A DNA stretch of 64,000 nucleotides from Algoriphagus pacificus (GTDB lineage Bacteria > Bacteroidota > Bacteroidia > Cytophagales > Cyclobacteriaceae), in contig NZ_JAFKCU010000003.1 of NCBI RefSeq assembly GCF_017254845.1, positions 624,270 to 688,269 of the forward strand, in the 5' to 3' direction. The notes below the pieces were generated by a model. That model saw only the letters and a program-made list of their open reading frames with translations, made no database searches and was not told where the DNA came from. This document shows positions 4,114 to 15,303 of the stretch, piece by piece. The translations under genes and the position numbers were made by a program. How positions within the stretch are numbered: the first letter of the stretch is position 1; each line of letters opens with the position of its first letter.

Positions 4114-4794
4114 CTATTCGATCAAAAATTCCTCTTCTAATTTCAATAAATATGAAATTGTATTATTGTAATCATTTAGATTCTCAATTCTAGCCCATTT
4201 AGACTTTAACATATCAATCTCTTGAATATCTACATAAGGCTTAATAACAATCAATCTATTTCTAAATTCAAGATTCTTTTCAGATATTGATTTTTTAAAA
4301 CTATGATTAAAGAAAATTAAAAGAAACAATATTACTGATGTAAATAGAAAAAGTCTATCTAGTAGCTTAACTCTTCTATCTAATGCATTAGATTTAATTG
4401 ATATGCTTTTTTCTAATTCAATTAAATTATTTTCTAATTCAATATTGTTTCTTTTCTCAATCTGAGCGGGCGATAGCGTAGTATTTAAACTATCTCTAAA
4501 GGACATCTTTAATTTTGAAACCTCGTAATTAAAATTTTTAATGTTAACAAAAATTATAAATAAAACAAATTCAAATAATAAGACTAAAACTAAACTATTG
4601 TTTTGTGAAAATAAATTTGGATCATCAACTGCTATACTTTTATAATATACATTACTTATATTCTCATTAACATATATTATAAAATTAACAAATGCCTTAC
4701 CTAAAATATCCAAAAATGGTTGTAAATAAAAAATAACTACACCAACTACAAATGATATTGCTATACTTTTGAAATTTCTTTTGATAAAATTCAT
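4114..4794 (-). CDS. Membrane protein of unknown function at the tail of the hsd operon
   Basis: I do not recognise a family. The 226-residue product has hydrophobic segments at about residues 11-42 (one long or two short), 68-84 and 147-163. A charged, probably coiled-coil stretch spans roughly 110-145. The soluble C-terminal tail ends in LKSKWARIENLNDYNNTISY. It starts 11 bp after hsdR and is followed 12 bp later by the lipoprotein gene, so it looks like part of the same transcript. Small multi-helix membrane proteins are common effectors or partners in defence operons, but nothing here proves such a role. Confidence 0.6.
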   Translation of the reverse strand: MNFIKRNFKSIAISFVVGVVIFYLQPFLDILGKAFVNFIIYVNENISNVYYKSIAVDDPNLFSQNNSLVLVLLFEFVLFIIFVNIKNFNYEVSKLKMSFRDSLNTTLSPAQIEKRNNIELENNLIELEKSISIKSNALDRRVKLLDRLFLFTSVILFLLIFFNHSFKKSISEKNLEFRNRLIVIKPYVDIQEIDMLKSKWARIENLNDYNNTISYLLKLEEEFLIE

Positions 4795-4805
4795 ATTAAA
4801 ATTTG

Positions 4806-7664
4806 TTAGCTGATAACCCTCTCTACAAAAGTATCTACAAAGTCCATTACTCTTTTTAGTATTCTAGCTCCAACAGACTTTCTCTGTAGCACTGTTGGTT
4901 TATCACCTTCAATTAAATCTAACACATCATCTCGTAAAGGTTCTCTCTCTGAGAATAAGTAGTTCTCTATCAAATTTTGCGTTTTCTCAGGTGATAATTT
5001 CTCTTCTTTTACCAGCTTATCAAATGCTTTAATTTGCTCTTCAGTCCAAAACTTATCAAACTCATCTTCTAAATTTTGAGTGTCTGAGATATGAGGTAAA
5101 TTCTCATTGATGAATTTTTCAATCAACTCACGCTTACTCCTTAGACTTGTTTCACCACTTAACAGATCAACTATTTCTTTCTTCTTCTTCTCTTGATCTT
5201 CTGGTTTAGAATCCTTTAATGCTGATAAAAGCTGTAGAATATAAGCAACATTTATTTCATCTCTATGAATTAGTTCTAGTTCAAAATCTACATCTTCCAG
5301 AATGGAAACTTTATCTGGTTGAATATTAGATTTCACTTTTTCATGAACATCTAAGTATTTACTCTTGTAATCTTCAAACTCCTGTTCATTGATATCAAGT
5401 ACTTCCCAGGTAAAATCTACAAATGAACTCAATGTATTCTTGTATCTCATCAACTCTCTAAATGCCTTTACAAATTCAAATTCTTCCTCCTCACTTCTAA
5501 GATCATTAACTGAATCAACTGTAGGAACAAGATCTTTTAATTTAGCTACTGCTTCATTAAATTTCTCCTGATAGTTTTCAATAGGTTCCATGATGATTAC
5601 ATCAATCGCATTCTTATTGCTGAAGAGTGTAATAGCTTCATCTGTAGCTTGTTTGAGATTTCTAAATACAACAATATTACCCTGAGATTTCAATTCATTC
5701 AATATTCTGTTAGTTCTGCTATAAGCTTGAATTAACCCATGATACTGTAAATTCTTATCTATATATAGAGTGTTGAGTTTGGGAGAATCAAATCCAGTAA
5801 GGAACATATTCACCACTAAGAGAATATCAACCTTCTTCTCTCGTACCTTTTTGGAAATGTCATTGTAGTAGTTGTAAAAGCTCTGAGTATCACGGGTGGA
5901 AAATTTTGTACCGAAAGTCTCATTGTAGTGACTGATATACTCATCTAATTTCTCTCTGGTGTGTTTATTCAAACCGTACAATGCTCTAGGATCTTCTTCT
6001 ACTACAGAGAGTTCTTCTGAAATTGATCCATTTGCATCTTTATCATCTTCATTTGCAGCATAGCTAAAGATTGTTGCAACTGTAAGATTATGTTCTCCAT
6101 TCAGTTTTTTCTTTCTGAACAACTCATAATATTTGATCAATACTTCCACACTACTTACACAGAACATCCCGGTAAATTCTCTGTTGTGAGTTTTTTTAGA
6201 ATGATTGGCAATAATGTAATCAGTGATTTTTTCAAGTCTACCAAAGTCTTCAATCAACTCTTTGGTGTTAATGTCTTCAACCTTAATGTCTAGAGCAGTT
6301 TTTGAACCTTCCTTTGCTTTGTATTTCCCTACATATTCAACTGAGAATTTTAAAACATTCTCATCTTTAATAGCATCAGTTATTACATATTTATGAAGAC
6401 ATTCTCCAAATAATTCTTTGGTTGTTCTCTTCCCCAATTCATTCTTGACTGCATTGTCAGCAAATATTGGAGTACCTGTAAATCCAAATAGTTGAATATT
6501 TGAGAAGTAAGACTTTATTCTATTATGTGTCTCTCCAAATTGACTTCTATGACACTCATCGAATATGAATACCATCCGCTCATCTTTGAGCAGATCCATC
6601 TTCTTGCTGAACTTAGCTTTACTTATTGCAGTATTAAGCTTCTGAATAGTGGTGACAATTAACTTGGTGTTATCAGAGAATTGCTCGACCAAACCTCTTG
6701 TATTTTCTGTTGCATCAACACAACCTTTACTAAAGCTGTCAAATTCTCTTGACGTCTGATAATCTAGATCTTTCCTATCTACTACAAATACTACTTTTTT
6801 AACTTCCGGTAAATTCATTAAAATCTGAGCTGATTTAAATGATGTCAAAGTCTTACCTGAACCTGTAGTATGCCAGATATATCCATTTTTCTTGGTATTG
6901 ATAACTCTATCAATTAAAGCTTCCACTGAATAAAATTGATATGGTCTCAGCACCATGAGTATCTTAAATGTCTCATTAAGCACTATGTACTTACAGATCA
7001 TCTTAGAAATATGACATGGATCTAAAAAATCAGAAGTAAATCCATTCAGAATATTTGTTAACCGGTTATTCTCTTTGTCCGTCCAATAGAAAGTCTGCTT
7101 GAATGATTGTTTGCTGTTATTTGCATAGTACTTGGTGTTCACTCCATTACTGATTACAAATATTTGAACATACTGGAAGAGAGCTGCACCACTTCCAAAG
7201 GAGTGTTTATGGTATCTATTAACCTGGTTAAATGCTTCTTTTAATTCTAAACCTCTTCTCTTTAGCTCTATCTGTACAAGGGGTAATCCATTAATCAAGA
7301 GTGTAACATCGTACCTATTTTTGTACTTACCCTCCATTGTGACTTGATTAGTTACCTGGAATTGATTCTGACACCAATGTTCTGTGTTAATGAATTCAAA
7401 GTATAAATCATCACCATTATCCAGCTGAATATGCTGTTTTTGACGAAGAGTCTTAGCTTTCTCAAATGCAGATCCTTTATTTAAGAGATTGAGCACTCTT
7501 TCAAATTCTGGAGCTGTAAACTTTACTTTATTGTGTTTCTCAAGCTGATTCTTCAAATTACCAATCAGACTTACTTCATCTTTAAGAGTTACATAGGTAT
7601 ACCCCTGTGATTGAAGTTGTTTAATGAGCTGTTCTTCAAGAACTTGTTCTGATTGACGAGACAT
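4806..7664 (-). CDS. hsdR: Type I restriction endonuclease subunit R (HsdR)
   Basis: This 952-residue protein is the translocating and cutting subunit of a type I restriction-modification complex. The N-terminal nuclease domain has D119 and the QIELK motif (E133, K135) of the PD-(D/E)xK fold. The SF2 helicase motor follows, with Walker A TTGSGKT at 266-272, the DEAD-type box DECH in FIFDECHRSQ, the motif III-like GFTGTP, and a C-terminal helical domain that binds HsdM. Length is typical and all motifs are intact. It starts 3 bp after the TIR gene. The full set hsdM, hsdS and hsdR is present, so the system should be active. Confidence 0.95.
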   Translation of the reverse strand: MSRQSEQVLEEQLIKQLQSQGYTYVTLKDEVSLIGNLKNQLEKHNKVKFTAPEFERVLNLLNKGSAFEKAKTLRQKQHIQLDNGDDLYFEFINTEHWCQNQFQVTNQVTMEGKYKNRYDVTLLINGLPLVQIELKRRGLELKEAFNQVNRYHKHSFGSGAALFQYVQIFVISNGVNTKYYANNSKQSFKQTFYWTDKENNRLTNILNGFTSDFLDPCHISKMICKYIVLNETFKILMVLRPYQFYSVEALIDRVINTKKNGYIWHTTGSGKTLTSFKSAQILMNLPEVKKVVFVVDRKDLDYQTSREFDSFSKGCVDATENTRGLVEQFSDNTKLIVTTIQKLNTAISKAKFSKKMDLLKDERMVFIFDECHRSQFGETHNRIKSYFSNIQLFGFTGTPIFADNAVKNELGKRTTKELFGECLHKYVITDAIKDENVLKFSVEYVGKYKAKEGSKTALDIKVEDINTKELIEDFGRLEKITDYIIANHSKKTHNREFTGMFCVSSVEVLIKYYELFRKKKLNGEHNLTVATIFSYAANEDDKDANGSISEELSVVEEDPRALYGLNKHTREKLDEYISHYNETFGTKFSTRDTQSFYNYYNDISKKVREKKVDILLVVNMFLTGFDSPKLNTLYIDKNLQYHGLIQAYSRTNRILNELKSQGNIVVFRNLKQATDEAITLFSNKNAIDVIIMEPIENYQEKFNEAVAKLKDLVPTVDSVNDLRSEEEEFEFVKAFRELMRYKNTLSSFVDFTWEVLDINEQEFEDYKSKYLDVHEKVKSNIQPDKVSILEDVDFELELIHRDEINVAYILQLLSALKDSKPEDQEKKKKEIVDLLSGETSLRSKRELIEKFINENLPHISDTQNLEDEFDKFWTEEQIKAFDKLVKEEKLSPEKTQNLIENYLFSEREPLRDDVLDLIEGDKPTVLQRKSVGARILKRVMDFVDTFVERVIS

Positions 7665-7667
7665 TAT

Positions 7668-8498
7668 TTACTGAATTAATTTTTCAATTCTATTTAGAAT
7701 TCTATCTCTATCTGGTTCCCAAGTGTGATCATCATGCTTAATACCACCAAATTCTTTTTGAATTAAATATTTCAAAGAATTCCATTTCTTGCTATCATTA
7801 ATTTTAAGACCATGTATAGTAGGAATTACAGCTCTTAAATCATCGAACCCTAATGGAGGAATTAAAATAGGAATACCAATTTTAGACAATACCCATGCTG
7901 CACCCATTTCACACATACTGATTTGACTTTCAAAATAATTTGGAGTGATCACGAATAACACTATTGAATTTGAGTTTATCTCTGATTTTATTCTTTCTAA
8001 AAAATCTTCCCCCAATTCAACTCCATAACCTTCAAATGAAGAGCAAAAAATTTGATTTCTACTTAACCCTATTACTTTGAGCATTTCAACAACTTCTTCA
8101 ACATATTCTATATCCCTACTAGAATGACTAATAAATATTTTATTCATACCTTTTTCAGCAACTTCATTCTTAGAATAATCCCCAAACTCCTCAATACTTC
8201 CTCTAACTGCTTGAAACAAAATAATTGCATCTTCAATACCTTTATTAAAAACTTCTTTTTCAAACTTCACTCCCGCCAAATACTCAGCATAAGTAGGATT
8301 TCTTTCAAACTTTATATCCTTAAACCTTTTTGATTGAGTATTAAAATCACCAAAAATCATTGACAACCTATCTTCAACTGTTAGTTTCCAAATTTTAAAT
8401 TTAGGGTTATCAACATTAGAATCTTTTAAACTCTCAGCTTCCTGTTCTAAATTAAAGAGAATTTCTATTTGCTTAATTGGTTGCATATATAGGGTCAT
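7668..8498 (-). CDS. TIR-domain protein embedded in the type I restriction operon
   Basis: This is a 276-residue soluble protein. Residues about 1-115 form a helical N-terminal region with a conserved-looking W37 and IFGDF (48-52). Residues about 119-240 form a TIR domain: box 1 FISHSSRD (122-129), then IVLFVITPNYF, then SMCEMGAAW, where E197 sits where the catalytic glutamate of NAD-cleaving TIRs is found. It ends with a short tail. Bacterial TIR proteins with this glutamate often hydrolyse NAD+ during abortive phage defence. The ATG directly abuts the hsdS stop codon, and hsdR starts 3 bp later, so it is made with the restriction subunits. A guard role is inference. An alternative start at Met5 is possible. 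Confidence 0.85.
   Translation of the reverse strand: MTLYMQPIKQIEILFNLEQEAESLKDSNVDNPKFKIWKLTVEDRLSMIFGDFNTQSKRFKDIKFERNPTYAEYLAGVKFEKEVFNKGIEDAIILFQAVRGSIEEFGDYSKNEVAEKGMNKIFISHSSRDIEYVEEVVEMLKVIGLSRNQIFCSSFEGYGVELGEDFLERIKSEINSNSIVLFVITPNYFESQISMCEMGAAWVLSKIGIPILIPPLGFDDLRAVIPTIHGLKINDSKKWNSLKYLIQKEFGGIKHDDHTWEPDRDRILNRIEKLIQ

Positions 8499-15228: not shown

Positions 15229-15303
<75 letters not shown>

Follow-up and report, generated by a model that had tools for sequence, protein, structure and literature searches.

What does a TIR-domain gene do when it is placed between the hsdS and hsdR genes of a type I restriction operon? The question is raised by a stretch of 64,000 nt from Algoriphagus pacificus (NCBI RefSeq assembly GCF_017254845.1, contig NZ_JAFKCU010000003.1, positions 624,270 to 688,269 of the forward strand; the whole stretch is called here the window), in which hsdM (523 aa, 11289-9718; N6_Mtase 3.6e-112 and HsdM_N in Pfam, TIGR00497), hsdS (405 aa, 9716-8499; Methylase_S in Pfam, 2e-16, in two stretches), the TIR gene (276 aa, SpbK-type, 8498-7668; TIR_2 in Pfam) and hsdR (952 aa, 7664-4806; HSDR_N, SWI2_SNF2 and EcoR124_C in Pfam, TIGR00348) succeed each other head to tail on the minus strand, with gaps of 1, 0 and 3 bp. 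Because this spacing is so tight (the TAA stop of hsdS directly abuts the ATG of the TIR gene), the four genes are likely carried on one transcript. An earlier reading of the bare sequence (the sequence-only reading) had pointed to this embedding, which the coordinates confirm, and had proposed that the protein plays the part of the anticodon nuclease PrrC, its N-terminus contacting the Hsd complex. We consider it rather probable that the gene encodes instead a self-contained, SpbK-like abortive-infection sensor with an exchanged sensor domain, carried in a cargo slot between hsdS and hsdR.

Sequence and predicted structure place the TIR protein among the NADases of the SpbK type, with the layout N-terminal domain (NTD), linker and TIR domain. 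Pfam finds TIR_2 as its sole family (residues 121-214, E 4.9e-10), within a TIR domain and C-terminal helix that span residues 118-276 (8147-7671, minus strand); the rest is a helical NTD in the model, a putative sensor (residues 1-107; 8498-8178, minus strand), with predicted helices at residues 7-22, 32-49, 54-60, 70-75 and 81-111 (the NTD was also modelled alone). The helical N-terminus which the sequence-only reading had described is borne out by the predicted structure (residues 7-111), and the glutamate it had located in the motif MCEMGAAW (residues 195-202) is confirmed: this is E197 (codon 7910-7908, minus strand), the putative catalytic residue, which aligns with the catalytic E192 of SpbK, while G199 and W202 align with its filament-interface residues G194 and W197. 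The three residues are invariant in all 18 aligned proteins, and identity to SpbK over the TIR part is ~27%. By homology, the protein would be a TIR of the NAD-cleaving kind with a catalytic glutamate, as had been suggested, since its nearest studied relative, SpbK, has proven NADase activity. SpbK (from ICEBs1 of Bacillus subtilis) senses the phage portal ring by its NTD, a domain with no solved structure, and its product is N1-cADPR (N1-cyclic adenosine diphosphate ribose). Both proteins combine a helical NTD, a linker and an SpbK-type TIR that has the catalytic Glu as well as the interface Gly and Trp, and both are encoded by a single gene on a mobile element; they differ in that the gene of the window sits inside a type I restriction operon, and any kinship of the two NTDs would be tentative, the match starting only at residue 60.

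Searches for the TIR protein gave matches in 6 of 98 relatives, 7 of 395 phylum genomes and 10 of 390 genomes of the order, the genome of A. pacificus being counted each time, and a scan of a genome collection gave 59 TIR loci. After loci found to be the same were merged (L018/L026, L013/L032, L014/L041 and L009/L033; L126 and L127 are apparently L027 and L025), there were 14 distinct NTD+TIR proteins (window, L023-L030, L032, L033, L041, L120 and L131), outside which stand L037 and L038 (partial NTD-TIR matches) and L055 (residues 2-250), with NTD-model E-values of 0.25-0.79, and L077, L079 and L080, which showed no TIR match on reading. In eight of the 14 (window, L023, L026, L028, L030, L032, L041 and L120) the gene immediately follows hsdS and has hsdM on its upstream and hsdR on its downstream side; as the same order, with TIR directly after hsdS, is found in 7 loci besides the window, the embedding goes beyond chance. 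The proportion is skewed toward embedded loci, because L120 was reached by the hsdM search and not by a TIR search (7/13 without it). No hsd genes were found in the examined flanks of the other six (L024, L025, L027, L029, L033 and L131), the flanks of L025 (<0.3 kb upstream) and L131 (1.5 kb each side) being short. Seven of the embedded loci represent one hsd lineage of Cyclobacteriaceae, and in the eighth (L023, from Anaerosporobacter, Bacillota) HsdM shares only 24-26% identity with the rest and HsdR belongs to the EcoEI_R_C type; the embedded cases span two type I families and are essentially two independent settings. In the collection scan, 10 of the 59 TIR loci carry hsdM, hsdS and hsdR matches in the examined flank, some with TIR proteins that lack this NTD (L046, L058, L052 and L078). 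The deltaproteobacterial L046 (3094-14349) has the order hsdM, hsdS, SIR2_2, a weak Piwi match, TIR, hsdR; L058 reads hsdR, hsdS, AAA_13-like, hsdM, TIR, Fic; in L052 the TIR gene lies 0.1 kb past hsdR; and L078 has hsdM, hsdS and hsdR together with a short TIR match. The genome of A. pacificus itself has four more TIR_2 matches (C23:795159-795437, C38:209083-209448, C23:921662-921943 and C23:792885-793184).

That the gene recurs in the same exact position beside hsdS is what would be expected if the protein were a guard of PrrC type, held inactive by the Hsd complex via its NTD and freed when a phage inhibits restriction. The HsdR of the window, which is of the EcoR124_C (type IC-like) kind that hosts prrC, also speaks for such a guard, and a suicide-type gene inside a type I operon whose HsdR resembles that of EcoR124 is what the locus has in common with PrrC/EcoprrI. 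However, prrC is described, in passages of PMC3874168, as invariably linked to the type Ic hsd locus (EcoprrI is also treated in passages of PMC3874165), whereas the linkage here is 8/14. The effector is another one too, with TIR_2 and a helical NTD in place of an ABC-ATPase N-domain and an anticodon nuclease C-domain.

Evidence against the guard also comes from the NTD itself, which does not track the Hsd subunits. Among the seven embedded loci of Cyclobacteriaceae, compared by pairwise identities and matrix correlations (rho), identities amount to 63-93% for HsdM, 61-96% for HsdR, 27-61% for HsdS, 41-81% for TIR and 15-55% (mean 24%) for the NTD. The TIR distances correlate with those of HsdM (rho 0.75, p 0.012), HsdS (0.78, p 0.010) and HsdR (0.75, p 0.010), a co-variation that would suit a guard, whereas the NTD distances are uncorrelated with HsdM (rho 0.00), HsdS (-0.06), HsdR (0.09) and TIR (-0.06; p 0.36-0.56). 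Moreover, in the pairs L026/L028 and L032/L041 HsdM and HsdR are 87-96% identical and the NTDs 22-23%, and on these pairs and distances the proposed role of the N-terminus as an Hsd-contact domain is not supported. Along L032/L041 (HsdM 88%, HsdR 87%, TIR with C-terminus 79%, NTD 22%) the final 45 nt of hsdS are 96% identical, the 20-residue blocks up to residue 120 fall to 15-27% (aa) and 33-49% (nt), those of residues 121-220 rise to 80-95% (aa) and 72-87% (nt), and the remainder stays at 50-76% (aa) and 62-69% (nt). Furthermore, the NTD of L028 is nearest to that of L120 (55%) and its TIR to that of L032 (81%); the NTD tree groups L028 with L120 (94/95), a pair which the TIR data reject (p-AU 0.024), and the NTD data give no clear rejection of a grouping of L028, L032 and L041 (p-AU 0.056). 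We consider that the discordance was most likely caused by recombination, with exchange between the 3' end of hsdS, which is conserved, and the beginning of the TIR domain.

The same discordance could in principle arise if the NTD evolved very fast in place under phage pressure, without exchange. The NTDs are homologous, as they share a weak common pattern (F34 and W37 invariant, G50 almost so, in 12 NTD rows) and as the profile matches span the whole domain, and this homology, like the NTD tree, which has no starred branch, would be compatible with such a process. We nevertheless think it unlikely, given that nucleotide identity in L032/L041 jumps between adjacent 20-residue blocks, that L028 and L120 have one NTD type in common despite their different TIR types, and that four stand-alone or mixed pairs taken as a control (TIR 62-71%) keep NTDs of 47-58%, whereas five of the seven embedded pairs with TIR at 62-81% have NTDs of 17-22% (the other two, 44 and 55%).

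The NTD is, furthermore, found outside restriction loci: those of L024 and L029, both without hsd neighbours, are 54% and 47% identical to the NTD of the embedded L023. It also matches the PADLOC candidate family PDC-S35 (window 5.4e-10, L023 4.1e-18), a family matched in 34 of 296 phylum genomes, in many cases through its C-terminal part alone. Of the 12 PDC-S35 loci that were examined, 4 are picked up by the NTD model (E 9e-18 to 0.0013) and 8 are not, at a cutoff of E 0.01, and no hsd gene was recognised in their flanks (up to 1.5 kb), the exception being a weak local hsd match within the PDC-S35 ORF (open reading frame) of L146 itself (94 aa, 1.7e-4). The N-terminal domain is common to PDC-S35 and the TIR protein of the window, and the difference lies in the C-terminal half, which in PDC-S35 is a CAP12/Pycsar-type TIR (PF10137 in 6/6 full-length proteins scanned). 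Since it is found on PF10137 proteins as well, we regard the NTD as a module joined to two TIR families. Taken together, because the NTD is discordant with the operon and occurs both without hsd genes and on another TIR family, an Hsd-contact domain of PrrC type is disfavoured and an autonomous sensor favoured. The TIR gene of L032 (= L013:12511-15384), intact beside an hsdR with an in-frame stop in its Walker A motif, fits this independence, as seen in one assembly. The recurrent exact embedding and the NADase-type TIR of the sequence-only reading stand, then, and its Hsd-contact NTD and PrrC role are not supported, a guard of that kind, the main rival to an autonomous sensor, now appearing improbable. 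That reading had also named a mostly stand-alone TIR protein and hsd loci lacking it as findings that would speak against it; these findings are half borne out, with 6/14 relatives standing alone and 13/18 related hsd loci (described below) without TIR, and 5/18 with it.

A further possibility is a two-part system, in which the NTD would sense a second messenger or a partner protein, the TIR domain would act as effector or signal maker, and the other part would be encoded elsewhere. In Marinifilum (L024:8253-10822), a stand-alone TIR relative lies 209 bp after an SMODS/AGS_C nucleotidyltransferase, on the same strand, and because of this neighbour some relatives may serve a CBASS-like (cyclic oligonucleotide-based antiphage signalling) system. 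The NTDs on CAP12/Pycsar-type TIRs and the N1-cADPR made by SpbK would likewise agree with two parts. Yet the eight embedded loci share no neighbour besides hsd (hsdR follows directly in the window and L023, and six different ORFs in the other six), and no cyclase family was found by Pfam among 18 ORFs from the interval. We give this possibility little chance.

These differing ORFs bear on the nature of the interval. Among 27 hsdM matches, the 18 at >=65% identity were all read and counted (of the 9 below 65%, L123 and L124 were read and have a different gene order), and their hsdS-hsdR intervals divide into 5 with the TIR gene, 11 with other ORFs, 1 that is empty (L110) and 1 that is degraded (L122). 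The TIR gene lies, in other words, in a place which other loci fill differently (18/18 loci compared), and in this operon lineage the hsdS-hsdR interval is a cargo slot, of which the TIR gene takes the hsdS side. ORFs of >=70 aa were picked mechanically from the slot (~60), and 18 were scanned with Pfam (7 without family; the families include FRG, DUF3800, GmrSD_N, Abi_2, PDDEXK_4, HTH_17, PIN_3 and pentapeptide repeats) and 9 with PADLOC (PDC-S15, PDC-M04A, PDC-M04B and PDC-S26 named, 4 without match). Within such loci, L120 has two tandem TIR genes between hsdS and hsdR (4424-6222), the second of a different TIR type; a 383-aa slot ORF of L112 (4297-5448) has a C-terminal stretch resembling EcoR124_C, the HsdR C-terminal family; and in L121 a Fic gene lies between hsdM and hsdS.

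Several observations weigh against an autonomous sensor that is merely carried by the operon. All 8 embedded loci have the TIR gene adjacent to hsdS (overlapping it by 4 bp in L026 and L030, and separated from it by 0 bp in the window, by 9-15 bp in L028, L032, L041 and L120, and by 110 bp in L023), a placement tighter than mere transport requires. The NTD may have some link to the hsd operon, since hsd genes were not seen next to the close TIR relatives that have a different N-terminus (no hsd match in the examined flanks of L031, L034, L036-L040, L042 and L043, and in L035 only a weak one on the opposite strand). The sequence profile match to SpbK begins at residue 60 only, and the NTD model gave no significant Foldseek match. 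The tree test is weak (long branches, an NTD tree without starred branch, groups picked after the identities had been seen), for which reason most weight falls on the identity step and the matrix test. Finally, we infer the phage ligand, the clustering, the NAD+ cleavage, the abortive infection and the defence itself.

With these points taken into account, the self-contained sensor would work as follows. By analogy to SpbK and its portal ring, the N-terminal helical bundle would recognise a product of the infecting phage, ligand binding would cluster the C-terminal TIR domains, and these, to go by homology and the conserved residues, would cleave NAD+ via E197, upon which the cell would stop. 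The restriction operon would act as a mobile platform that also gives joint expression and a second layer of defence, and the trigger would come from elsewhere. In the operons of Cyclobacteriaceae the TIR half would stay with the operon and the sensor half would be exchanged by recombination. It is about evenly balanced, and in our judgement slightly on the doubtful side, that type I operons can hold an NADase chassis co-evolving with hsdM, hsdS and hsdR, with a sensor half that recombination between the hsdS 3' end and the TIR 5' end replaces, such that DNA recognition (HsdS) and phage-protein recognition (NTD) would diversify in parallel.

The operon is held by a 15,116-bp island, bounded by a perfect 69-bp repeat (att copies at 113-181 and 15229-15297), the right copy lying within tRNA-Thr(tgt) (15230-15303) and covering most of it. 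At the right end of the island a tyrosine integrase is encoded (400 aa, 15065-13863, minus strand; Phage_int_SAM_5 and Arm-DNA-bind_5 in Pfam, phrog_1), and the island has a GC content of 32.1%, versus 39.9% for the window to its right. The 3' sequence of tRNA-Thr recurs in two further 18-bp copies immediately to the left of the island (at -622 and -199 in window coordinates), which may be relics of previous insertions at this tRNA. Two minus-strand ORFs downstream of hsdR may belong to the same operon, namely one of 226 aa with hydrophobic segments (4794-4114, 11 bp past hsdR, no family match) and one of 300 aa (4101-3199, 12 bp further on, weak RHS-repeat match). A 675-aa ORF, helicase-like by eye (13623-11596, minus strand), had no Pfam, PADLOC, NCBIfam or PHROG match; it lies upstream of hsdM in the window, and relatives of it adjoin this hsd lineage downstream of hsdR in five other loci (L013:15470-17530, L028:15757-17796, L118:11352-13427, L119:10836-12866 and L117).

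Defence genes inside type I loci are already known. In the passages available, DarTG2 lies between hsdS and hsdR, at a site called a potential recombination hotspot (PMC12255303), TgvAB are defence genes inside a type I locus (PMC11411939), and PDCs derive from a 'guilt-by-embedding' screen (PMC12988326). The DarTG2/RptR island and TgvAB resemble the present locus in the nesting of defence genes in a type I operon (for DarTG2, exactly between hsdS and hsdR) and differ in their toxin-antitoxin and GmrSD-like cargo, an exchanged sensor domain not being described in those passages. Among the matches listed by full-text searches, outside which lie subscription papers and most preprints, none described a TIR gene placed in the hsdS-hsdR interval, nor a sensor exchange there. 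The preprint of Payne et al. (2024; 10.1101/2024.01.29.577857), said to be the source of the PDCs, may well include such TIR genes. What appeared to be a PrrC analogue offers a test of why defence genes come to lie within restriction operons. That one sensor domain is joined to two TIR families points to a possible recognition module independent of SpbK, and the alleles of L032, L041, L028 and L120, with similar TIR and hsd parts and different sensors, would permit the ligand of each sensor to be mapped; the same natural alleles let one ask whether the nesting serves regulation or transport only.
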